DNA from: Parasphingorhabdus halotolerans
GTDB lineage: Bacteria > Pseudomonadota > Alphaproteobacteria > Sphingomonadales > Sphingomonadaceae
Length of the DNA: 64,000 nt
NCBI RefSeq assembly: GCF_012516475.1
Contig: NZ_CP051217.1
Coordinates: 124,001 to 188,000 of the forward strand
Direction: 5' to 3'
Positions within the stretch are counted from its first letter, which is position 1. Every line of letters begins with the position of its first letter. Below, one piece after another: positions 46,526 through 58,532 of this stretch. Under the pieces are notes generated by a model. It did not search any database, was not told the origin of the DNA, and saw nothing but the letters and a program-made list of their open reading frames with translations. The position numbers were made by a program, and so were the translations under genes.

Positions 46526-48085
46526 ATGACCGAGCCGCATACTATCAACCAGTTAAGTGCGCAGGATGCGCAATTTCTATATGTTCAGTCCGCGACCAAT
46601 TTGACCCACGTGATGGCCGTCTATATTTACGATCCATCGACTGCGCCGGGCGGGAAAGTGCGTTTCAAGGATATTATCGAACATATGAGAAAGCGGCTGG
46701 ATGTGTCGCCAATGTTCAAGCGCAAGCTATACCGCCTGCCGCTAGATATTGATCATCCCTATTGGGTGGAAGACGAGCATTTTGATCTTGAAGCCCATAT
46801 CTCGCACAGCCGATTGCCTGAACCCGGTGATTGGCGGCAGTTCTGCATTCAGGTTGCTCGCCATCATAGCAAGCCGCTGGATATGAACCGGCCGCTCTGG
46901 GATATGTATGTCGTCGAGGGGCTGGATAATATTCCAGGGTATGCCAAAGGCAGCTACGCAATTTTGACCCGCATTCATCATTCGACAATTGATGGAGTAT
47001 CTGGAGCCCATTTTTTTGCGGCCGTGTCGGATATGGATGCGAAAGGGACACCGGCCATTCCTTTGCCAGAAGGCAAGCCCGAACAAAGCGATCTACCTAC
47101 CGCTGCAGAAATTCTGGAACGGGCAATATCAAGCACAGTGACGTCACCCGTAAAACTCACACAGGCGTTGATGAAATTTGCTCCGGCAATTCTGTCCACC
47201 GCAACCAAGTCCATTCGTGGAGGGGACGAAAAATCCGGAAACTCAGTGCCGGAAACACGATTTAATGGATCCGTGACACCGCATAAAATGTTTGACGCGG
47301 TCACATTCGATTTGGAAGAGCTTAAAAAAATCAGGCTCAAGGTTGATGGCGCGACGATCAACGATGTTGTGCTTGCCGTCTGTAGCGGCGCGATGCGGCA
47401 TTATCTCAAGAAGCACAAGGAACTACCGAAAGAATCGCTGGTCGCCGTAGCGCCAGTCAATGCGCGAAGCCGGTCAGGTGAAGAAAGCAATCCCGGCAAT
47501 AATATTTCGGCGATGACTATCAAAATCTGGTCCGATATCGCTGATCCTTTGCAGCGCTTGGGAGCGATTCGAGACACCACGAGAGAAACGAAGGCCGCAA
47601 AATCTGGTTTGAGCGCGAGGATTATGACGGATTTGTCCAAACATATTCCTGGCGTAACCATGGCCAGTGTTGCCCGTATTTTAACCGATGAACGGTTCGC
47701 GCCGAAAATGAGCAATTTGATGGTTTCCAATGTTCCGGGGCCGCAAATTCAATTGTATATGAACGGAGCGAAGCTCACACATCAATACGGCTTGGCTCCC
47801 TTGGCGCACGGGATGGGGCTGTTTATCGCCACGCCAAGTTACAACGGCACGATCTCGTTCAGCGTTATTTCCGACCGGAAAATGATGCCGGACATCGATT
47901 ATTTCGTCGAGTGCATAGAAAAATCTTTTAACGAATTGCGGCTTGCTAAAGTTAATAGCTCGGTTAAAAAGACGGCGGCAAAAGCGGAGGCAGCAAAGAA
48001 AGCTGCAACGCATTCGCCAACTGGCTCAAATTATCGGCGCGTATCAAAGACGCCGAGAAGAGCCAGTCAGGGCAAGACGAAATAG
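46526..48085 (+). CDS. Wax ester synthase/diacylglycerol acyltransferase (WS/DGAT)
   Basis: The 519-residue protein belongs to the bacterial WS/DGAT family, which makes wax esters and triacylglycerol from acyl-CoA. The catalytic HHxxxDG motif is present in ILTRIHHSTIDGVSGAHFFA (about residue 155). Other family blocks are PYWVEDEHFDLEAHISHSRL, PLDMNRPLWDMYVVEGLDN, and the later NVPGPQIQLYMNGAKL with GMGLFIATPSYNGTISFSVI. The last ~45 residues are Lys/Ala/Arg rich (VKKTAAKAEAAKKAATHSPT), echoing the basic tail of the PlsC fusion two genes upstream. This family is the key enzyme for storage lipid. Confidence 0.94.
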   Translation: MTEPHTINQLSAQDAQFLYVQSATNLTHVMAVYIYDPSTAPGGKVRFKDIIEHMRKRLDVSPMFKRKLYRLPLDIDHPYWVEDEHFDLEAHISHSRLPEPGDWRQFCIQVARHHSKPLDMNRPLWDMYVVEGLDNIPGYAKGSYAILTRIHHSTIDGVSGAHFFAAVSDMDAKGTPAIPLPEGKPEQSDLPTAAEILERAISSTVTSPVKLTQALMKFAPAILSTATKSIRGGDEKSGNSVPETRFNGSVTPHKMFDAVTFDLEELKKIRLKVDGATINDVVLAVCSGAMRHYLKKHKELPKESLVAVAPVNARSRSGEESNPGNNISAMTIKIWSDIADPLQRLGAIRDTTRETKAAKSGLSARIMTDLSKHIPGVTMASVARILTDERFAPKMSNLMVSNVPGPQIQLYMNGAKLTHQYGLAPLAHGMGLFIATPSYNGTISFSVISDRKMMPDIDYFVECIEKSFNELRLAKVNSSVKKTAAKAEAAKKAATHSPTGSNYRRVSKTPRRASQGKTK

Positions 48086-48170
48086 GAGTGGAAAGAACCC
48101 AACAGCAACTGAAATTCGGTTGTTCTCCATTGCCGTTGCGAGTTTTCGGCACAAATCAAGTGAGTAAGAT

Positions 48171-49648
48171 ATGATCCTGAACACCACATTGAAGATGGAA
48201 AAGGCGATGGCGCAAGCCACGAGCTATTCCGAGTGGGCGGACGCAGCGGCTGCGCATGACCGCTCGACTGGCGTGGATGTCTGGAAAGAGTCTGACGAAA
48301 GCAAGCACTTCGACAACAAATCAATTCGCCGCCGTCTTAAGCGACTGTCAAAACTGTGGAAAAGTCAGGATAATGCGGGACTTTTATACGCTCTAAACGA
48401 GGGCATTCATGGCAATATGGACGGTATGGGCAACAAGCGCCTCCACCAGAAAGCCAAATTTGGCACCAAGCAACTCATCCAGGATTACGTCGATGCCATT
48501 GTCAATTCGCTTGAGTATCTGGCGAGTGATAAAGTTAACGATATTCCGTTTGAAGAAAAACTGGATTTCTTTCGCCGCGCCCAGCATTGCTATGGTCGGT
48601 CCGCGTTTTTGATGAGTGGTTCGGGCGCATTTCTCTATTTTCATGTCGGTGTTGTAAAGGCGCTGTGGTCGGAAGGCCTCTTACCGCATATCATGTCCGG
48701 TTCCAGTGGCGGATCGGTTGTCGGCGCGCTCATCGCTACGCACACCGATGATGAAATTCCGCCATATTTCGAAGCGAAAAATCTGTTTGACGACTCTATC
48801 AGTGATGATGATGGAGAAGCCGGTTTCGGCCTTTTTGGCGGCTCGCGGCGGCTCAAAGCGGATGAAATTCGAGCGCGACTAACCACCATGCTACCTGATC
48901 TTACATTCCAGGAGGCCTATGAACTCACTGGTCGTCATCTCAATGTCTCGATTGCCCCTGCGGAAAAGCACCAAACGTCAAGGCTACTAAATGCCATTGC
49001 ATCACCGAATGTTTATATACGTGAGGCCGTATTGGCTTCTTGTGCCGTGCCGGGTGTATATCCGCCGGTCACCTTAGCAGCCAAAGACCACACCGGAAAA
49101 CGTATCCCGTATCTGCCTAATCGCAAATGGGTGGACGGTTCGGTTACCCATGATTTGCCAGCCAAGCGCCTTGCGCGGCTTTATGGTGTGAACCACCATA
49201 TCGTGAGTCAGGCTAATCCTTTGGTAACGCCCTTTGCCAGCGATGTCAGTCAGCAAAAAACTCCTATTTCAGCTATCCGCAACGCGACAACGACGACGAT
49301 GAAGGCCTGGATCAATGCCAATGTTGATATCATGCAGAAGCCGCTGTCCTATTTTCCACGTCTGAACAGCCTAGCGAATATGACGCTTTCGGTGATCAAT
49401 CAGGACTATATGGGCGACATCAATATCATCCGTCCCAGCATGTTTTGGGGCCATCGAAGATCCTCAGCAATCTTCCAGTTGAGGATATTGAAGAGTTGAT
49501 CCAGCTTGGTGAAAAAACGACCTGGCCGAAAATTGAAATGGTGCGGACCCAAACAAAAATTAGCCAAACTCTGGATAGAATTTTATTCGACTATGAAACA
49601 GAACTGGCACATGACCATGATGCTGCGATGAAAAGGAAAATCGCTTGA
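48171..49648 (+). CDS. Patatin-like triacylglycerol lipase with DUF3336, -1 frameshift near 3' end
   Basis: The N-terminal ~140 residues match the DUF3336 region that precedes the patatin domain in TGL-type lipases. The patatin domain has the oxyanion block SAFLMSGSGAFLYFHVGVVK, the nucleophile GSSGGS and the Asp of KWVDGSV. The first frame breaks off after INIIRPSMFWG; a second frame continues PSKILSNLPVEDIEELIQLG to 49648. Adding one base at the T4G4 run 49443-49450 restores a product of about 491 residues. It would release fatty acids from stored lipid. The corrected stop overlaps the next gene's TTG start. Confidence 0.88.
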
Positions 49649-50508
49649 AGCATGACGAAGGAAACCTGCGGCTAAGTGCCAGTTCCAAGGCAGCTGGCGC
49701 AAAGCTTTTTTTCCAGAAATGGTTGCCGGATACACCGCCTAAGGCGGTCATATTACTGATTCATGGTTATGCTGAACATAGCGGGCGCTATCAATATTTC
49801 GCCGAACATTGCGTAAATCGCGGCTACGCCGTTTTTGCAATCGACCATTGGGGCCATGGAAAATCCGATGGCGACCCGGGTTTTGTTCCTGATTTCTCGG
49901 TGTTTCATGATGGTGTTGATGCGCTTGTTGAAATGGCTCGGGCGGCTTATTCCGGCCTTCCAATAATGCTGGTGGGTCACAGCATGGGCGGATTGATCAG
50001 CGCGACCTATTTGCTGGAGAACCAGTCTAAGTTTGCTGCGGCTGTGCTCTCCGGCCCCGCTATCAAAGCTGCCGAGGAGCCTTCTGCTTTTCTCAAAGCA
50101 ATAAGCGGTTTGCTGTCACGATTTCTCCCGAAACTTGGAGTGCTGGCGCTGGATTCGAATGGCGTTAGCCGTGATCCCAAGGTGGTGGCTCATTATTTAG
50201 CAGACCCGCTTGTTTACAACGGAAAAATGGGCGCGCGTCTGGCGGCGGAAATGCTGAATAACATGACTGCTATCCAGCAGCAGGCATCGCAAATAGAGCT
50301 GCCAATGCTAATGTTGCACGGCTCTAATGATAGCCTTGCCGCCGCAGAAGGTTCGACCTTTTTGGACTCAAAAATATCGTCGCCTGAAAAGCAACTCAAG
50401 ATATATCCAGGCCTGTTTCATGAAATTTTCAACGAGCCTGAGAAAGATGCCGTTCTCACTGATATGACGGACTGGCTCGATGCCAGAATAGGCTCCAGCG
50501 CCGCATAA
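49645..50508 (+). CDS. Monoacylglycerol lipase-like alpha/beta hydrolase
   Basis: The 287-residue serine hydrolase is of the monoacylglycerol lipase/lysophospholipase group. It shows LLIHGYAEHSGRYQYFAEHC (oxyanion block), FAIDHWGHGKSDGDPGFVPD, nucleophile elbow VGHSMGG, and the Asp and His near MLMLHGSNDSLAAAEGSTF and LKIYPGLFHEIFNEPEKDAV. The start is a TTG that overlaps the patatin stop (TTGA); a nearby ATG is out of frame. It probably completes hydrolysis of monoacylglycerol from the lipase upstream. Confidence 0.9.
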   Translation: MKHDEGNLRLSASSKAAGAKLFFQKWLPDTPPKAVILLIHGYAEHSGRYQYFAEHCVNRGYAVFAIDHWGHGKSDGDPGFVPDFSVFHDGVDALVEMARAAYSGLPIMLVGHSMGGLISATYLLENQSKFAAAVLSGPAIKAAEEPSAFLKAISGLLSRFLPKLGVLALDSNGVSRDPKVVAHYLADPLVYNGKMGARLAAEMLNNMTAIQQQASQIELPMLMLHGSNDSLAAAEGSTFLDSKISSPEKQLKIYPGLFHEIFNEPEKDAVLTDMTDWLDARIGSSAA

Positions 50509-50527
50509 ATATCTGAAAGTTTCAAGC

Positions 50528-51460
50528 ATGTTAAACATTGTATTGTGGATAATCGCCGGTCTGATTGCAGGCTCATTGATACTCTATTTCGTTTTCCCGC
50601 GATTACTCTATTCTGCGATGCGAAACGGATTGCGTCGTAAGGGTGGGCTGGTTGAGAAATCGGTCAAGACAGGCGAATTTGACTGGCCCTATCTGGAAGG
50701 AGGACCGTCCGATGGCGAAGTTGTCTTGCTGGTTCACGGATTTGGCGGAGACAAAGATAATTGGGCGCTTTTCTCTCCCCAAATAACCGAAAAATACCGG
50801 CTCATTTCGATGGATTTGCCCGGATTTGGTGAAAATGACCGGTCGTTGAACCGTGAATATGACATTGCATCGCAAGTCGAACGGCTGCGTGAATTTCTTG
50901 ACGCTCTGCGTATTTCAAAATGCCATATCGGCGGCAACAGCATGGGCGGCCATATCGCCCTGCAATTTGCGCTGACCCATCCAGAATATCTGAAATCGCT
51001 GACGCTTTACAATAACGCCGGTGTTGAGGGTAAAAATGAAAGCGAGTTGGTGAAGTCAGTCGAAAATGGTGAGAATGCTCTGGCAATCAACTCGGTGGAA
51101 GACGTAAAACGCATGATGGCGTTTGTGACACATAATCCGCCACCAATTCCCGGCCAATTCCGCAAGGTTTTCTTCGAAGAAGCCAACGCGCACAAGGAAT
51201 TGCTCGACAAGATATTTTGGACGATTGTGAAAGACACCCAAGATCGCCCGTTAAATGGTGAACTGGGTGGTTTGAAAGTGCCCACTCTGATCATCTGGGG
51301 CCGTCATGACCAATTGATCGACGTGAGCTGCGCGGAGGCAATCCACGCCGGTGTCGAAAATAGCGAACTGGTCATTTTTGAAGATGTCGGCCACATCCCG
51401 ATGATAGAAAAGCCTAAAGAAGTCGCTGCGGCACAACTTGCTTTCCTTGCCAAACACTGA
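50528..51460 (+). CDS. Membrane-anchored alpha/beta hydrolase (lipase-like)
   Basis: This 310-residue hydrolase has an N-terminal TM anchor (about residues 4-24, VLWIIAGLIAGSLILYFVFP). The catalytic elements are VVLLVHGFGGDKDNWALFSP, nucleophile elbow GGNSMGGHIAL, Asp in LIIWGRHDQLIDVS and His in FEDVGHIPMIEKPKEVAAAQ. The shape is like ABHD6-type or bacterial lipase-1-type enzymes acting on acylglycerols at the membrane. It lies 19 bp after the previous hydrolase gene, in the same operon. Confidence 0.88.
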   Translation: MLNIVLWIIAGLIAGSLILYFVFPRLLYSAMRNGLRRKGGLVEKSVKTGEFDWPYLEGGPSDGEVVLLVHGFGGDKDNWALFSPQITEKYRLISMDLPGFGENDRSLNREYDIASQVERLREFLDALRISKCHIGGNSMGGHIALQFALTHPEYLKSLTLYNNAGVEGKNESELVKSVENGENALAINSVEDVKRMMAFVTHNPPPIPGQFRKVFFEEANAHKELLDKIFWTIVKDTQDRPLNGELGGLKVPTLIIWGRHDQLIDVSCAEAIHAGVENSELVIFEDVGHIPMIEKPKEVAAAQLAFLAKH

Positions 51461-51527
51461 TTTCCCCGCCAGTCTACTGTCTGCGAACTCCCGTTAAAGA
51501 GGAGTCGCTGGTAAGAGGGGACAATAT

Positions 51528-52529
51528 ATGAAATTGCGGGTTGGTCTATTAGGTGGCGGGTCTTGGGGCACAACGGTTGCTTCGCTGGTTTCCCGCAACG
51601 CTCCGATCAAGCTATGGGCGCGCGATGTAGAGACCGTAGCTGACATCAATGACAACCATCGAAACAGCAAGTATCTGCCTGATGCAGTGCTCCCTGATGA
51701 GCTAACCGCGACTTGTGAAATTGGTGAAGCGGTTTCGGATGCCGATGTACTTGTGATGGGTATTCCTTCCAGTAATTTTCGTGGGGTGCTGGAAGAGGCC
51801 AAGCAATATTTACGGCCTTGGGTGCCGGTCATTAGCCTCACGAAAGGGCTAGAGCTTTCTACCAGTAAGCGCATGACGGAGGTAATCGAGGAGGTTTTGC
51901 CGGGGCATCCTGTGGGTGTGCTCACTGGGCCTAATCTTGCCCGCGAGATCATGTCGGGTCAGGCAGCTGCGAGCGTCATTTCTATGGAAGATGAGATCAT
52001 CGTGAAGCAGTTGCAGCAGCTTTTTCATTCCGGAATGTTTCGGGTCTACACCAACACGGATTTGCTTGGTTGCGAATTGGGCGGTGTATTGAAAAATATC
52101 ATCGCCATTGCCGTGGGTATGGGTGATGGATTGGGGGCAGGGGACAACACCCGTTCTGCATTAATCACCAGAGGACTGGCTGAAATTACGCGACTGGGAG
52201 TTGCAATGGGCGGTCGCCCTGAAACTTTCTCAGGGCTTACAGGCATGGGCGATATGATCGCCACTTGTACCAGTTCTTTATCCCGCAACCGACACGTTGG
52301 CGTAGAGCTCGGTAAAGGACGGAAAATTGATGCGATCATCGCCGATATGTTGATGGTGGCGGAGGGGGTAAAAAGCGCGCCTACGGTTATCGCCTTGGCA
52401 AAAAAATACGGCGTCTCTATGCCTATTGCTGAAGACGTATACGAAGTCACAAAGGGCAATCGATCTGCCGTGCGAGCATTTCGCGGATTAATCAGCGCTT
52501 CAGCCGGTTCTGAGGCCGATGCAGGTTAG
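51528..52529 (+). CDS. gpsA: NAD(P)+-dependent glycerol-3-phosphate dehydrogenase GpsA
   Basis: GpsA reduces dihydroxyacetone phosphate to glycerol-3-phosphate, the backbone for all acylglycerols. The 333-residue protein has the Rossmann motif LLGGGSWGTTVASLVSRN, ISLTKGLELSTSKRMTEVIE, VGVLTGPNLAREIMSGQAAA and ELGGVLKNIIAIAVGMGDGL with the catalytic Lys, plus RNRHVGVELGKGRKIDAI. Length is normal. At the end of the lipid cluster it provides the substrate for the PlsB homologue. A short GTTGC-GGCT-GCAAC hairpin lies just after the stop. Confidence 0.96.
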   Translation: MKLRVGLLGGGSWGTTVASLVSRNAPIKLWARDVETVADINDNHRNSKYLPDAVLPDELTATCEIGEAVSDADVLVMGIPSSNFRGVLEEAKQYLRPWVPVISLTKGLELSTSKRMTEVIEEVLPGHPVGVLTGPNLAREIMSGQAAASVISMEDEIIVKQLQQLFHSGMFRVYTNTDLLGCELGGVLKNIIAIAVGMGDGLGAGDNTRSALITRGLAEITRLGVAMGGRPETFSGLTGMGDMIATCTSSLSRNRHVGVELGKGRKIDAIIADMLMVAEGVKSAPTVIALAKKYGVSMPIAEDVYEVTKGNRSAVRAFRGLISASAGSEADAG

Positions 52530-52828
52530 TCAGGTGGTTGCGGCTGCAACTAACTTGGCTGGAAATATCCGTTGATGGCCGAAAATGATAAACTTAAATT
52601 TGTAAAATAATGTCACATTTGCAGTCAATTATAAGCGATATTTGATGCGGCTTTGAAAGCAAGTGACTCAAACAAAAGAAAATTATCGAGTCAATTAAGG
52701 ATGTTAATTAAAAGGAGCGGATTTACTTGCTTCTTTATGGGGCGCGGCTTAAAAAAATGAATATAGCGCATTGGGATTTGATTAACCGGAGTTATGATGG
52801 TCAAGCTCAAAATGTGGAGAGTAAGAGT
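52530..52828 (+). other. AT-rich region upstream of rpfF
   Basis: About 300 bp with many A/T runs and no supported gene. The rpfF frame is open back to 52727, but protein similarity and RBS favour the start at 52829. The promoter of rpfF should lie here. No sigma54 or sigma28 match was found. Confidence 0.5.
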
Positions 52829-53782
52829 ATGAAGTTGAAGAGTATCATAGCAAATGATATGGAACAAAAAATGTTCCAGGATGGAACGGAATCGTTGATC
52901 CAATCCAATGCCGATTTTGATCACGATATACTTGGTAAATCTTTCAACGAAATATCTCTGCGTTTTGACAAGCCGGACGAAATTTTCTGGTGCTATATGA
53001 ACCAGAAATCACGACCGAGTTATACTTATGAGCTGGGTGATGAGATCCAGCAAGTGCAGGATTGGATTCACACCAATTACGCGATGGGCGCGACGAAACC
53101 AGATCATCCGCTGCGCTATTTCGTTTGTGGTTCAAAAACCCCCGGTATTTACAATCTGGGTGGTGATCTCGAGCATTTTGCGGATTGCATAAGGCGCCGG
53201 GACCTTGGCGCTCTCAAGAAATATGCACGGACCTGCGTTCACATGCAGTACGCCAACAGTACTGGTTACGGCGCGCCTGTAATTACCATGGCGTTGGTGC
53301 AGGGCGATGCGCTTGGCGGCGGCTTTGAGCATGCTTTGGCTTTTGATATTCTTGTCGCAGAAAAAAGCGCGCGAATGGGTTTGCCGGAAATATTGTTTAA
53401 TCTCTTTCCAGGAATGGGCGCATATAGCTTTTTGCGACAACGGCTGGGCAGAAAGGAAACAGAAAGATTCATTCTGGAAGGCAAGTTGTTCACGGCCACA
53501 GAATTATATGAAATGGGTGTTGTTGATATCTTGGCTGAAGATGGTCAGGGTGAAGCTGCAATCATTGAATATACAAAAGCCAACCAACGCCGGTTTCATG
53601 CCGAACGTGCAGTGTATCGTGCTCGCCGGATATCAGACCCTGTTTCGCTGGATGAATTGCTCGAAGTCACCGATATGTGGGCAGAAACTGCTCTCTATCT
53701 TGATGAAGCTGATGTTCGGAAAATGGAACGTTTGGCGATGGCTCAGGATCGGAGAATACGTCGCTCGTTGCAGTCTGTTTAG
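52829..53782 (+). CDS. rpfF: DSF synthase RpfF (crotonase family)
   Basis: RpfF makes cis-2-unsaturated fatty acid signals (DSF family) from acyl-ACP. The start is placed at ATG 52829 with GGAG 12 bp upstream, giving 317 residues. Compared from memory with Xanthomonas RpfF, it shares NLGGDLEHF, IAL/MALVQGDALGGGFEHAL, MGLPEILFNLFPGMGAYSF and TDMWAETALYLDEADVRKME. The two catalytic Glu residues, 141 and 161 in Xanthomonas, appear as Glu167 and Glu187 with the same 20-residue spacing. The gene converges on the rpfC-type kinase gene (11 bp apart), as in Xanthomonas. A simple enoyl-CoA hydratase is less likely. Confidence 0.92.
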   Translation: MKLKSIIANDMEQKMFQDGTESLIQSNADFDHDILGKSFNEISLRFDKPDEIFWCYMNQKSRPSYTYELGDEIQQVQDWIHTNYAMGATKPDHPLRYFVCGSKTPGIYNLGGDLEHFADCIRRRDLGALKKYARTCVHMQYANSTGYGAPVITMALVQGDALGGGFEHALAFDILVAEKSARMGLPEILFNLFPGMGAYSFLRQRLGRKETERFILEGKLFTATELYEMGVVDILAEDGQGEAAIIEYTKANQRRFHAERAVYRARRISDPVSLDELLEVTDMWAETALYLDEADVRKMERLAMAQDRRIRRSLQSV

Positions 53783-53793
53783 ATCATCTGGTT

Positions 53794-56373
53794 TTATTGA
53801 GAAAAGTTAACAGACGCGGAGCTGAACTTTTTGGCCTCATCCTGCGAGGGTGATCGTTGAGCTTCAAGATATTGCGTGATCGCCGACAGCTCGGTTTCAA
53901 CCAGAGATAAATATTCGTGTCGTCGGCTGTCAAAGTCTGGCTGTGTTATGACTTCGAGTTTTGAGCAGATTTCTGACAAACCTAACGCTCCAACATTGTT
54001 GGCGCCGCTTTTGAATGCGTGGGCCTGAAACCGAAATTCGGCGATATTCTCCTGCTCGACGGAAGATTTGAAAGCTGACAATATTGCGATGTTATCCTCA
54101 AGATAGGATTGAACGATGGATTGTACGAAATCGGAATCGCCGATTGAAGCCAGATATTCCATCTGGGTCTCATCGATTGGCGAAATCGCATCAACATCGT
54201 AAGTGCCGTCAATTGATTGTACAACATTGAAGGGGTCTGAGACCGGTCTATCAACAAAGTTGTTGCCTGAATTTCCGCTGCGCAAATGGTTTGTATGTTG
54301 GGCAATCACTTTCAAGAGAGAGCCTGTCTCCACAGGCTTGGTGATCCTGAGATCCATCCCGGCATTCAGGCATTTTTTTTCGGTTTCTTCAGTTGAATCA
54401 GCGGTTAATCCAATGATCGGAATATGGTTTCTCGGCCCCTCAATCTGGCGCCATAGTTTACAACATTCTATGCCGCCCAAACTTGGCATATTCACATCGA
54501 GAAAAACCAGATCAAAAGCATCCGCTTCCAGTTTTTCTAATACCTGATTGCCGTCACCTACGGTGACAACGTTGTGGCCGGCGTTAGACAGAATAGTGTC
54601 CAAAACCATCTGATTTGTGCGGTTATCATCAGCAACTAATATTCTGAGTGGAGGTCCGTTTTTATCGGGATTACTTTCAGTCTCTATCTCCAACACTTTA
54701 ACATGGTTGAACGAACACCCAATTTGTATGACGCTCCGAATCTCATCAAAATCAGGCGATGCCGGAAGAACTGATGCGAACGCTGCCCGCAGTCGAATAT
54801 CATCAAGATTAGCCGATTGCGATTGGGACAGCAAAACAGGGGCAAGTTTGGCAGCTTGGAAGAGCGGCCATGTTGCTGAATTCTCTTCGCACATTTCTGC
54901 TGCATTCTGATCCAGCACAGCAAGATGAAAATTGCTCAGATTCTTATTTTTGAGAATTGCACAGATGTCATCTTTGGAATGCAACTCAATATGCTCGACA
55001 TGAATCGTATCGATGTTATCGCTTTGAATTTCTGGACCCAAAGGTTTCGATCCCAGCGACAATAATCTGAAGCTATTCTCGTCTGGGCCATCGTTATTGC
55101 TCTCCGCAATTGCAACAGGGCAGGTTAGGGTAAATGTGCTCCCCATTCCAACTTGGCTTTCAACAATTACATCGCCGCCCATCTGGATTGCAAGCTTTCG
55201 ACAAATGGCAAGGCCCAGACCCGTGCCGCCAAAATCGGCCTGCACACCATCATTTGCCTGCTGGAAGACTTCAAAAATCTTGTTTTGCGCTTCTTCCGCA
55301 ATGCCTGGTCCTGTGTCGGTGACCGAGCACCAAAGCAAATGAGATCCGGAGTTTTTATGAATCCCGCATTTGAGGAGGATCGATCCCTTACAGGTAAATT
55401 TTACTGCGTTGCTGGTCAGGTTGATCAATATGTTTCGGATGTGGTCCAATTGTCCAGCAATTAGTCGATCGCTCATTGTTTCGGCCTGCAGATGAATTTC
55501 CAAATCCTTTTCATCAGCATTTATCTGCATGATATCCCGCACTTCAGAAAGCAGGTTTATGGCGGAAAACTCTTTTGGTTCCGGTAATTCGTCTCTCGAT
55601 TCTGAGTGCGAGAAGCTCAACAATTGATTGATAAGGTGCAAAAGATGCCGGCCCGCAGAAACACTTGTTGCCACCATTTGATTTTGTTTTTCCGGCAGGC
55701 CCATCTCGAGCATGTGGGTACCATATCCAATAATTGCGTTTAATGGCGTCCTTAGTTCATGGCTTATGTTGGCCAAAAATAGGCTTTTCGCCTTATTGGC
55801 ACTTTCTGCTTCCTCTTTTGCTTTGGACAGCTTCAAAATCAATGTTGAGCAATAGGCAGGTATGATAAACAATCCCGCGAGGAGACCTATCGACAGTGAT
55901 TTATTTTCGTACCAGAACGGAATATTATATACTGTCCACCCAAATGAAAGAGTACCCATAGTAGCTGCAATGAAGAGCCATTTTACGCCATAGCGGAAGC
56001 CGTAGCCCAGTATAACCCAGAGGTAGATCGGGTAAAAGGCAGCCACGCTCGCCCCGCCGATTGAGGAAAAATAGATTCCTGCCCCAAATTCCGTGCAGAG
56101 GCCAACTATTCGACGAACATTATTGGGTTTTGGATCAAGATGATAAGCAAGGGCGATACCAAGGCCAATCACTAGATAAACCAGAAATCCTTCGATAATT
56201 CCCGGGTAATCAGCATCAAAAAGCCAGCAGCATATTGAGACAACGATTATGAGTAGGATTCGGTTTTTTATTATTTCGTGTTCACGGTCTCTTGGCTGTG
56301 ACATTGATCTGTGAGAATGCCTGCTGTGATTGTCGCGAGGTTTCGTTCCAAATTTGTGTTTTAAAGAGAACAT
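53794..56373 (-). CDS. rpfC: RpfC-type hybrid sensor kinase (TM-HisKA-HATPase-REC-HPt)
   Basis: The 859-residue DSF-sensor candidate has an N-terminal region of about five or six TM helices (40-180). It contains the pattern ILGYGFRYGVKWLFIAATMG then TLSFGW, closely like the RpfC input domain as recalled (GNGLRYG…AATAMGSLCF). HisKA follows with His205 in FLANISHELRTPLNAIIGYG, then HATPase (ILINLTSNAVKF, DTGPGIAEEAQNKIFEVFQQ, GGTGLGLAI), REC (VFLDVNMPSLGGIECC) and a C-terminal HPt with His in FRFQAHAFKSGANNVGALGL. The gene is the second of an operon with the GGDEF-EAL regulator (5 bp gap). MSQPRDREHE (56304) is a possible later start. Confidence 0.9.
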   Translation of the reverse strand: MFSLKHKFGTKPRDNHSRHSHRSMSQPRDREHEIIKNRILLIIVVSICCWLFDADYPGIIEGFLVYLVIGLGIALAYHLDPKPNNVRRIVGLCTEFGAGIYFSSIGGASVAAFYPIYLWVILGYGFRYGVKWLFIAATMGTLSFGWTVYNIPFWYENKSLSIGLLAGLFIIPAYCSTLILKLSKAKEEAESANKAKSLFLANISHELRTPLNAIIGYGTHMLEMGLPEKQNQMVATSVSAGRHLLHLINQLLSFSHSESRDELPEPKEFSAINLLSEVRDIMQINADEKDLEIHLQAETMSDRLIAGQLDHIRNILINLTSNAVKFTCKGSILLKCGIHKNSGSHLLWCSVTDTGPGIAEEAQNKIFEVFQQANDGVQADFGGTGLGLAICRKLAIQMGGDVIVESQVGMGSTFTLTCPVAIAESNNDGPDENSFRLLSLGSKPLGPEIQSDNIDTIHVEHIELHSKDDICAILKNKNLSNFHLAVLDQNAAEMCEENSATWPLFQAAKLAPVLLSQSQSANLDDIRLRAAFASVLPASPDFDEIRSVIQIGCSFNHVKVLEIETESNPDKNGPPLRILVADDNRTNQMVLDTILSNAGHNVVTVGDGNQVLEKLEADAFDLVFLDVNMPSLGGIECCKLWRQIEGPRNHIPIIGLTADSTEETEKKCLNAGMDLRITKPVETGSLLKVIAQHTNHLRSGNSGNNFVDRPVSDPFNVVQSIDGTYDVDAISPIDETQMEYLASIGDSDFVQSIVQSYLEDNIAILSAFKSSVEQENIAEFRFQAHAFKSGANNVGALGLSEICSKLEVITQPDFDSRRHEYLSLVETELSAITQYLEAQRSPSQDEAKKFSSASVNFSQ

Positions 56374-56378
56374 GGAGT

Positions 56379-58532
56379 TCAGCCCTCAGCTGATCGGTTG
56401 GTATACCGCTGCTGATCGAACAGCTTTTTGAGGTTCTCTGCGCGTTGCGGACGTGCAATTTTGAAGCCCTGAATCTCGTCAACACCGGAAACCTGGAGAA
56501 GTTCCAACTGCGCATCATTTTCAACACCCTCTGCAATAACGCGCATATCAAGAGCATGAGCAAGGTGAGAGATTGTACCAATAATGGCTCGATCCGCTGC
56601 GGAATGTTCGATTCTCGAAACGAAGGTACGATCAATCTTTAGGCAGTTTGCTGGCAGATCCCGTAAATATTGGAGAGAGGAATAGCCGGTGCCGAAGTCA
56701 TCGATCGAAATGCCAACGCCGTGTCTTCTGAGGCGATTCAAGGAGTTACTCACATGTTCATTGTTGTCGAGCAGCAGTTCTTCGGTAATTTCGACGACAA
56801 TTTTGGAAGGTTCGATATTATGCAATTTGATGTTTTTTAGAATCTCATCGCAAACGTTCTGATTTTGAAATTGCCGCGGTGAAATATTGATTGCTACACG
56901 CGGCAAATCGACACCTTCGTCCGCTGAAGTGCGTATTTGTCTACAGACCTCCGCTATGACCCATTTGCCCATGTGATCCATCAAGCCGGTATCATCGGCA
57001 ACCCTTATGAACTGGACCGGTAACAGGCGACCGCGACTGGGGTGATCCCAACGTATCAAGGCTTCGAGGCCTACATATTCTAGTGTTTTAGCATCAACAA
57101 TTGGTTGATATTCTAGAGCAAATTGCTCTTGACTAAGCGCATCGCGCAATTCATTTTCCAGAGCTGCATCGGCTTGGGCGATCTGGTTCATTCCTTCCGA
57201 AAAGAAACGATGACAGTTTCGACCATTGGCTTTGGCATCATACATCGCCAAATCAGCCAATCGTAAGACTTCTTCATATTCCACGCCGTCATGAGGGATC
57301 AGGCTTACGCCGATACTTGCACCAATAACTTGTTCCATCCCGCTGATGGAATAAGGTTCATTTATAGCTTTCAGAATTTTTGTGCATCGTGAATTTATCG
57401 AATCTGCCCCATCTATCTCATTGAGAATTATTGCGAATTCATCCCCTCCAATTCGAGAGGCAAAATCTTTTGCTCCTATAATATTCGATAGCCGTTCGGC
57501 AACTTCGCGTAACAACGTGTCGCCGCTATGATGTCCGCGAGTATCATTGATCACTTTGAACCGATCAAGGTCAAGCAACAATAGCGCAGATTGGCTATTT
57601 TCACGCAGGCAGATATCGATTGCCTCACGCACTTTTTCTGCAAGCAATACGCGGTTCGGAAGGCCAGTTAGCATATCGTGCAATGCCAAATGTGTCCGGT
57701 GCTCCTCCGCAAATTTGCGTGCTGTAATATCAACAGCCGTTGTAAGCACACCTATTGTTTCACCCTTGTGATTAAGCAGGGGTGATTTGTTGCAGTGGAA
57801 AATCAACTGCACGCCGTCGCTGTTAATTTTTTCTTCGTAATGCGGAATGGGTTGGCCAGACTTCAAAACGATCGTGTTTCGTCGATTCGAATTATCGGCC
57901 TGAGTGGTGTCTAGAAAGGTGGTAAAGTCTCGGCCCACCATTTCATCCGGGCTCTTGTCAAATAGAGCAGATTGATAGGCATTGGTGAATAGACATTTTC
58001 CAGAGCGATCAGTCGCGTTGATCATGATCGGAATAGTGTCGATAATTTGTTCGAGGATGCTCTTGCCGCTTGTCGTCTCGGGTCCGGGTTCAACACCGAC
58101 CGCTGCATATTTTTTCTCAAGCTCGGAAGCACGTTTTTTCAGGTCACCACTTTTTTCCGTCTGACTGAGCAACGCAATGGCGCGGCTGCAAAATTCTACG
58201 TGAGAGACCGGGCTTTGAAGAAAATCTGTTGCACCTGCATCCAATGCCGATAGCCGACATTCGCGATCTTGATGAGCAGTGATTACGATTGCCGGAACTT
58301 CTGCGCCGGATGGCATCGCCCGCACTTTGCGAATAAACTCCGCGCCATTCATTTGTGGCATCCGATAGTCAACGATTAACAAGTCCACGCTTTCCATGCG
58401 CAGCCATTGCAGCGCTTCAAGCGGGTCTGCAAAGGTGACGGAGGAATATTTCTCCCCCATCAACGTCACAAACTGTGCATATATACGCAGATTGGTTGGT
58501 CGATCATCGACTATTAAGACACGCGTGCTCAT
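56379..58532 (-). CDS. REC-PAS-GGDEF-EAL response regulator in the rpfG position
   Basis: The 717-residue protein has four domains. REC (1-130) has Asp55 in LLIVDYRMPQMNGAEF and LDAGATDFLQSPVSHVEFCS, a stretch that recalls the RpfG receiver. PAS lies at about 160-285. GGDEF (about 290-450) has an intact RIGGDEFAIIL but no RxxD I-site. EAL (about 465-705) has GLEALIRWDHPSRGRLLP, SIDDFGTGYSSLQYL, LKIDRTF and AEGVENDAQLELL, the residues of an active phosphodiesterase. It is presumably the partner of the adjacent kinase and turns DSF into c-di-GMP change. In Xanthomonas the equivalent gene encodes an HD-GYP protein. Confidence 0.93.
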   Translation of the reverse strand: MSTRVLIVDDRPTNLRIYAQFVTLMGEKYSSVTFADPLEALQWLRMESVDLLIVDYRMPQMNGAEFIRKVRAMPSGAEVPAIVITAHQDRECRLSALDAGATDFLQSPVSHVEFCSRAIALLSQTEKSGDLKKRASELEKKYAAVGVEPGPETTSGKSILEQIIDTIPIMINATDRSGKCLFTNAYQSALFDKSPDEMVGRDFTTFLDTTQADNSNRRNTIVLKSGQPIPHYEEKINSDGVQLIFHCNKSPLLNHKGETIGVLTTAVDITARKFAEEHRTHLALHDMLTGLPNRVLLAEKVREAIDICLRENSQSALLLLDLDRFKVINDTRGHHSGDTLLREVAERLSNIIGAKDFASRIGGDEFAIILNEIDGADSINSRCTKILKAINEPYSISGMEQVIGASIGVSLIPHDGVEYEEVLRLADLAMYDAKANGRNCHRFFSEGMNQIAQADAALENELRDALSQEQFALEYQPIVDAKTLEYVGLEALIRWDHPSRGRLLPVQFIRVADDTGLMDHMGKWVIAEVCRQIRTSADEGVDLPRVAINISPRQFQNQNVCDEILKNIKLHNIEPSKIVVEITEELLLDNNEHVSNSLNRLRRHGVGISIDDFGTGYSSLQYLRDLPANCLKIDRTFVSRIEHSAADRAIIGTISHLAHALDMRVIAEGVENDAQLELLQVSGVDEIQGFKIARPQRAENLKKLFDQQRYTNRSAEG

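Follow-up and report, generated by a model that had tools for sequence, protein, structure and literature searches.

In the rpfF/rpfGHC locus of Xanthomonas, the gene for the diffusible signal factor (DSF) synthase RpfF is convergent on a kinase-regulator operon: the kinase RpfC joins a transmembrane (TM) input domain to HisKA, HATPase, receiver (REC) and Hpt domains, and the regulator RpfG joins a receiver to an HD-GYP output. In Burkholderia, rpfF is convergent with the gene for RpfR, a PAS-GGDEF-EAL protein (PMC6361424). Available excerpts of other studies describe clustered RpfF, RpfC and response regulator genes in Leptospirillum (rpfFCG; PMC8357829), an RpfC-related TM input with the conserved Glu in Pseudomonas aeruginosa PA1396 (PMC6536496, PMC4504480), and an RpfC-RpfG pair in alphaproteobacteria derived from KEGG groups (PMC8895600), where a term search of the excerpt gave no mention of EAL. 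Here we describe a three-gene locus in a 64,000-nucleotide stretch (the window; bases 124001-188000 of the single 3.27 Mb contig) of the Parasphingorhabdus halotolerans genome. To judge from its sequence, the locus probably encodes a quorum-sensing module of the DSF family with a cyclic di-GMP (c-di-GMP) output.

The window locus resembles that of Xanthomonas in the convergence of an rpfF-type gene on a kinase-regulator operon, in the RpfC-type TM input followed by HisKA, HATPase, REC and Hpt, and in the RpfG-like receiver of the regulator; unlike the Xanthomonas locus, it has PAS-GGDEF-EAL in place of HD-GYP, a Ser in place of the receiver Lys and changes at three of five receptor residues, and its genome gave no match in an HD_5 search. 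With Burkholderia it shares an rpfF convergent with a gene for a PAS-GGDEF-EAL protein, but here the regulator bears a receiver and has a membrane kinase as partner, and two of the four residues contacting the Burkholderia signal (BDSF) are replaced. The clustering is that of Leptospirillum, whose regulator is however an HD-GYP RpfG and whose genes run in one direction, while PA1396, as described in those excerpts, differs from the window kinase in having no Hpt domain.

An initial annotation of the window had proposed a complete DSF signaling locus, and an open reading frame (ORF) scan and Pfam recovered its three genes, with their domain make-up, in the same places (Table 1). The rpfF-type gene, which could also begin at a TTG codon at 52727, lies tail to tail with the kinase gene (ends at 53782 and 53794). 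The regulator stop is five bases from the kinase start codon, and because only these bases part them the two genes look like one operon. The order and orientation are, as had been claimed, those of Xanthomonas, the same convergent order being found in HD-GYP loci L118-L123. RpfF occurs in 29 of the 31 Parasphingorhabdus genomes (76-81% identity), and GpsA, RpfF, kinase and regulator follow in order in 15/16 genus regions, the last of which ends at a contig end. The three-gene order that was to be sought in other Sphingomonadales exists in Sphingorhabdus and Novosphingopyxis baekryungensis. Of 39 named loci, many of which come from genomes already represented in the 16 regions, 34 have the whole block; contig ends truncate four others, and the fifth, from a metagenome-assembled genome, has the kinase split over two ORFs. 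Thus, the block is more than chance. A survey of 385 genomes of the class found RpfF (E <=1e-40) in 24, the kinase input domain (E <=0.001) in 26 and both in 22. RpfF stands without the input domain in G096 and G374 (the region read around RpfF in G374, L128, has no RpfC-like kinase beside it), and the input domain without RpfF in G762, G822, G998 and G1008, weakly so in G822 and G998. G1036 and G932 have both, but in separate places.

The window locus exemplifies a pattern that is widespread in alphaproteobacteria. We scanned 139 loci, the window included and the 16 genus regions not recounted; these are not independent, as they comprise relatives and include at least one genome twice (L133 and L216). 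All three genes were recognized in 102, and in 99 of these the order is convergent (exceptions L038, L039 and L170). The output is GGDEF-EAL in 77 complete loci, a histidine kinase in 17 and HD-GYP in eight, Pfam confirming the HD-GYP assignment in all five that were submitted. The remaining 37 include loci truncated at contig ends and loci that have RpfF without an RpfC-like kinase (including L040, L041 and L135); L281 and L283 hold an RpfC-like kinase and a regulator with no RpfF in the stretch. GGDEF-EAL loci fall in family groups f1 (that of the window), f21, f28 and f207, and REC-PAS-kinase loci in several other alphaproteobacterial groups. The architecture is not peculiar to the group of the window: REC-PAS-GGDEF-EAL or REC-PAS-kinase regulators occupy the same block across several families. 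A quick tree of 72 kinases (near-copies dropped by hand) requires, as drawn, five or more switches between the three outputs, with 18/69 inner branches weak, and parts 39 kinases, including all those of HD-GYP loci and f207, from the other 33 (Shimodaira-Hasegawa-like approximate likelihood ratio test, SH-aLRT, 99).

The RpfF protein has a crotonase domain (ECH_1 in Pfam). Both catalytic Glu residues named in the initial annotation are in place, E167 and E187, with the same 20-residue spacing as the catalytic pair E141/E161 of Xanthomonas RpfF (PMC9040811). Its best four sequence matches in the PDB score 197-161 bits (7zq7, 3m6m, 6dgn and 5fus) and the fifth only 61.5; 3m6m and 6dgn are named RpfF, 7zq7 and 5fus crotonase/enoyl-CoA hydratase. 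The protein matches the PRK08788 crotonase model at 350 bits (cut-off 177), and in its own genome it scores 719.9 bits to itself and 46.3 to the next protein, nine other crotonase matches being far weaker. In a 55-row quick tree, built after manual removal of 17 rows (seven of which were divergent RpfF-like proteins lacking an RpfC neighbor), 49 RpfF-type proteins part from six own-genome crotonases, whose branches are long, with SH-aLRT 97. The phylogeny that had been called for thus does not place RpfF with ordinary enoyl-CoA hydratases, and such an identity was rejected on tree and scores.

The kinase shows HisKA, HATPase_c, Response_reg and Hpt domains in Pfam, and the second-best PDB match of its receiver is the RpfC REC chain of 3m6m. 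The TM input domain scores 71-80 bits against the kinases of L118-L123, loci whose xanthomonad-type label rests on HD-GYP, gene order and the passing of the curated RpfF cut-off by L118-L120; 100 block-shuffled controls reached at most 9.0. In a search of 374 ORFs with the input region, all nine kinases of L132 and the HD-GYP loci scored 33-80 bits, and the highest-scoring of the remaining ORFs had 4.0. Its own genome yields 23 further matches to kinases or receivers, all of which begin at or after query residue 184, so that none covers the TM region. The proposed RpfC-like kinase with RpfC-type input is thereby borne out, and both findings that the initial annotation had regarded as decisive came out on its side, RpfF standing apart from hydratases and the TM input being related to RpfC. 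Regular-expression counts of the kinase phospho-residues (70, 55 and 44 of 72) are too strict to mean absence and were not used.

The REC-PAS-GGDEF-EAL regulator in place of HD-GYP is real, with Response_reg (residues 5-115), PAS, GGDEF and EAL domains in Pfam. Its receiver scores 68-88 bits against those of HD-GYP (RpfG-type) regulators, compared with 34-38 for four other stand-alone receivers in the loci. A phospho-acceptor Asp is present in 72/72 regulators compared. The position that is usually Lys in receivers is Lys in all six HD-GYP regulators; of the 66 others, 65 have Ser and one has Thr. GG(D/E)EF was found in 32/32 regulators of f1, f21 and f28; it was not found in 12 of 17 from f207, and ten of these 12 have SDEF or SDEL in its place. 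In the window the GGDEF motif is intact, and the RxxD motif that forms the inhibitory site of GGDEF domains lacks its Arg. All 49 GGDEF-EAL regulators have DDFGTG, and 48 have an EAL-type motif (EAL 45, EVL 3), L275 reading ETL. Since EAL-type motifs were found in nearly all and GG(D/E)EF was often not found in f207, phosphodiesterase is the activity that appears to be under selection. The absence of HD-GYP is not genus-wide, an HD_5 protein occurring in two of a draw of six genus genomes to which that of the window belongs.

From the homology, gene order, phospho-acceptors, intact GGDEF and EAL motifs and conservation seen in these sequences, we infer the following enzyme action, phosphotransfer and sign of output. 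RpfF would make a cis-2-unsaturated fatty acid, which the membrane hybrid kinase would sense; phosphate would be relayed from His205 via Asp626 and His785 to Asp55 of the operon-partner regulator, whose conserved activity is most likely that of an EAL phosphodiesterase. With such an output, c-di-GMP would fall in response to the signal, an effect that RpfG has through a different enzyme class.

Several points weigh against a DSF module of this kind. RpfF scores 223 bits against the curated NCBIfam RpfF model and does not reach its cut-off of 550, although this cut-off looks narrow, since few genomes (0/298 and 3/398 in two surveys) pass it. The Ser at the receiver Lys position suggests that phospho-signaling may be atypical, and the intact GGDEF motif means that the regulator could make c-di-GMP instead. 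Of the two genus genomes without an RpfF match, G022 is 73% complete and G009 is a complete genome, so that in the latter the locus is dispensable.

Table 1. Features of the rpf-type locus, in window coordinates
Feature	Position	Strand	Remarks
rpfF-type DSF synthase gene	52829..53782	+	317 aa from ATG 52829; ORF scan, Pfam, profile searches, tree
RpfF first catalytic-type Glu, E167	53327..53329	+	in GGGFE
RpfF second catalytic-type Glu, E187	53387..53389	+	in GLPEILF
RpfC-like hybrid histidine kinase gene	53794..56373	-	859 aa; TM input, HisKA, HATPase_c, REC, Hpt
Kinase Hpt phospho-acceptor His, H785	54019..54021	-	AHAFKSG
Kinase receiver phospho-acceptor Asp, D626	54496..54498	-	FLDVNMP
Kinase phospho-acceptor His, H205	55759..55761	-	SHELRTP
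Kinase N-terminal sensor motif	56260..56295	-	PRDREHEIIKNR, residues 27-38; aligned to R15-Q22 and following of Xanthomonas-type RpfC
Response regulator gene, REC-PAS-GGDEF-EAL	56379..58532	-	717 aa
Regulator EAL motif	57057..57065	-	intact; from residue 490
Regulator GGDEF motif	57435..57449	-	intact; residues 362-366; no Arg at inhibitory-site position (GAKD for RxxD)
Regulator Ser107	58212..58214	-	at usual receiver Lys place
Regulator receiver phospho-acceptor Asp, D55	58368..58370	-	

Xanthomonas RpfC needs R15, D17, S18, E19 and Q22 for DSF sensing, and all S18 replacements but Thr, as well as Q22A, Q22E and Q22N, weaken the response (PMC5391125). The window receptor retains two of these five residues, D17 and E19, with P, R and I at positions 15, 18 and 22; the label of a Xanthomonas receptor in the initial annotation thus fails for three of five DSF-sensing positions. 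Among the 72 kinases compared, E19 is kept in all. The set S/T18+E19+Q22 is broken in all 32 kinases that are paired with GGDEF-EAL regulators in f1, f21 and f28, and intact in 17/17 such kinases of f207, where all five residues are kept; it is also kept in 14/17 kinase-output and 4/6 HD-GYP loci. At position 22 the 32 kinases have Met (23), Ile (8) or, in L133, Thr, and in all of them Asn immediately precedes an invariant Arg. A changed motif end is also seen in the L170 kinase, from a kinase-output locus, and f207 combines the unchanged motif with a GGDEF-EAL output; both indicate that the motif tracks receptor lineage, not output. A single origin of the changed-motif lineage is not shown by the RpfF tree, yet the approximately unbiased (AU) test does not reject it (p 0.318).

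Whether the receptor lineage of the genus recognizes a ligand other than Xanthomonas DSF is a close call, which we place just short of even odds on these motif data. A point on the negative side is that the test is not clean, the set being missing also in three of 17 kinase-output and two of six HD-GYP kinases. Alternatively, the receptor may still sense ordinary DSF or BDSF, its motif changes being neutral drift; the E19 kept throughout and the D17 kept in the window speak for this, and we consider it a serious possibility, though on balance a doubtful one, because the changes are non-random: position 22 is Met or Ile in 31/32 of the f1, f21 and f28 GGDEF-EAL kinases, and the Asn before the invariant Arg is found in every one.

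Two further explanations we hold to be improbable. According to one, the RpfF homolog is a metabolic or envelope-lipid crotonase next to a two-component system that senses something else, the adjacency being historical. RpfF-type crotonases without an RpfC neighbor do exist in the same family (L040, L041), and a lipid-type gene run lies 5' of rpfF, two hydrolases and GpsA of which are kept in 16/16 genus regions; however, a mere accident of history does not sit well with the finding that, of the 24 genomes with RpfF, 22 also have the kinase input domain, or with the convergent order in 99/102 complete loci. According to the other, the fatty acid is perceived by the PAS domain of the regulator, as in RpfR, and the kinase only modulates the regulator. 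In addition to the shared PAS-GGDEF-EAL plan and convergence with rpfF, the regulator-PAS profile matches the PAS of B. cenocepacia RpfR at 25 bits, and in one alignment, judged by eye, the BDSF contacts S168 and N201 of RpfR are Ser and Asn in the window as well. N171 and R186 are Arg and Glu there, however, and Asn in the N201 column was found only in the five sphingomonad regulators among 12 aligned; since the same profile gives 46 bits with the PAS of L130 and 23 with that of L136, the 25 bits are not special. The mixture of a Xanthomonas receptor with a Burkholderia RpfR-type output, as first proposed, is not upheld for its output half either, the regulator having an RpfG-like receiver and two of four BDSF contacts replaced; an RpfR hybrid was rejected on the same two grounds. 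RpfR carries an N-terminal FI domain and lacks a receiver; in the window regulator a receiver takes up residues 5-115, the FI domain not having been searched for.

As to the topology of the receptor, sequence statistics and a model favor six TM helices with the sensor motif inside. Because fatty acids can cross membranes, a response to the signal in inverted vesicles would fit this arrangement as well as one with the motif outside. Such a response to DSF has been reported for RpfC, in an article whose excerpts call the periplasmic place of the motif putative (PMC5391125). Reporter fusions of the related PA1396 favor five helices and a motif outside. A joint reading, which we offer tentatively and think unlikely to hold in full, would be that alphaproteobacterial DSF loci are modular, combining one RpfC-type receptor and an RpfG-like, Lys-less receiver with interchangeable outputs; that the window lineage has changed both enzyme and signal, its ligand being neither DSF nor BDSF; and that the receptor perhaps has six helices and a cytoplasmic motif, contrary to the published periplasmic model. 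If true, many Alphaproteobacteria would share one kind of fatty-acid signal and read it out through regulators that differ in output class, Parasphingorhabdus would be a system with receptor and output both shifted, and the two receptor sensor types would offer a direct test of fatty-acid recognition by a membrane kinase. The DSF papers met deal mainly with plant and human pathogens. The initial annotation knew of no description in this bacterial group, and among the open-licence PubMed Central papers listed, judged by titles and abstract starts, none dealt with a sphingomonad rpf locus or with RpfC partnered by a regulator of the GGDEF-EAL type.

G+C content is 0.456-0.467 over the rpf block (window 52001-58000) and about 0.50 in adjoining 2-kb bins. 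The lipid-type gene run 5' of rpfF (window 46526-52529) comprises, according to Pfam, a WS/DGAT acyltransferase, a patatin, two alpha/beta hydrolases and GpsA; GpsA beside rpfF was not seen in loci L206-L219. A promoter scan gave hits at chance level (9 versus 10.4 expected) and terminators numbered 10 versus 6.5; the scan was not used as evidence.

Variant forms of each component were met among the loci. An RpfF with a C-terminal extension matching Haem_oxygenas_2 in Pfam (iron-containing redox enzyme) is encoded in L038 (6820-8886), and a protein of similar length, also extended at the C terminus, in L039 (6019-7911); such a fusion of the synthase with a possible fatty-acid-modifying enzyme could yield a new signal. 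The RpfF of L162 (7651-9873) and that of L175 (7910-9880) are extended at the N terminus by about 460 and 375 residues, respectively; the extension in L162 gave no Pfam match. In L118 (5100-7832) the kinase has two RpfC-type input domains (residues 13-178 and 253-376) and is perhaps an RpfH-RpfC fusion. The regulator beside RpfF in L167 (9349-10887) has a HisKA_2-type kinase output, with the RpfC-like input domain elsewhere (L282). In other genera of the window's family, an RpfF-like crotonase (L040, 7342-8298; L041, 7035-8078) lies by ORFs that read, from their translations and not from a family search, as exosortase-like and asparagine-synthase-like, with no RpfC-like kinase. Plasmids of Methylobacterium radiotolerans (L285, 8853-11183) and Sphingomonas parapaucimobilis (L284, 8874-10832) carry an RpfF-type gene convergent with the gene of a single EAL-domain protein, an RpfR-like layout.

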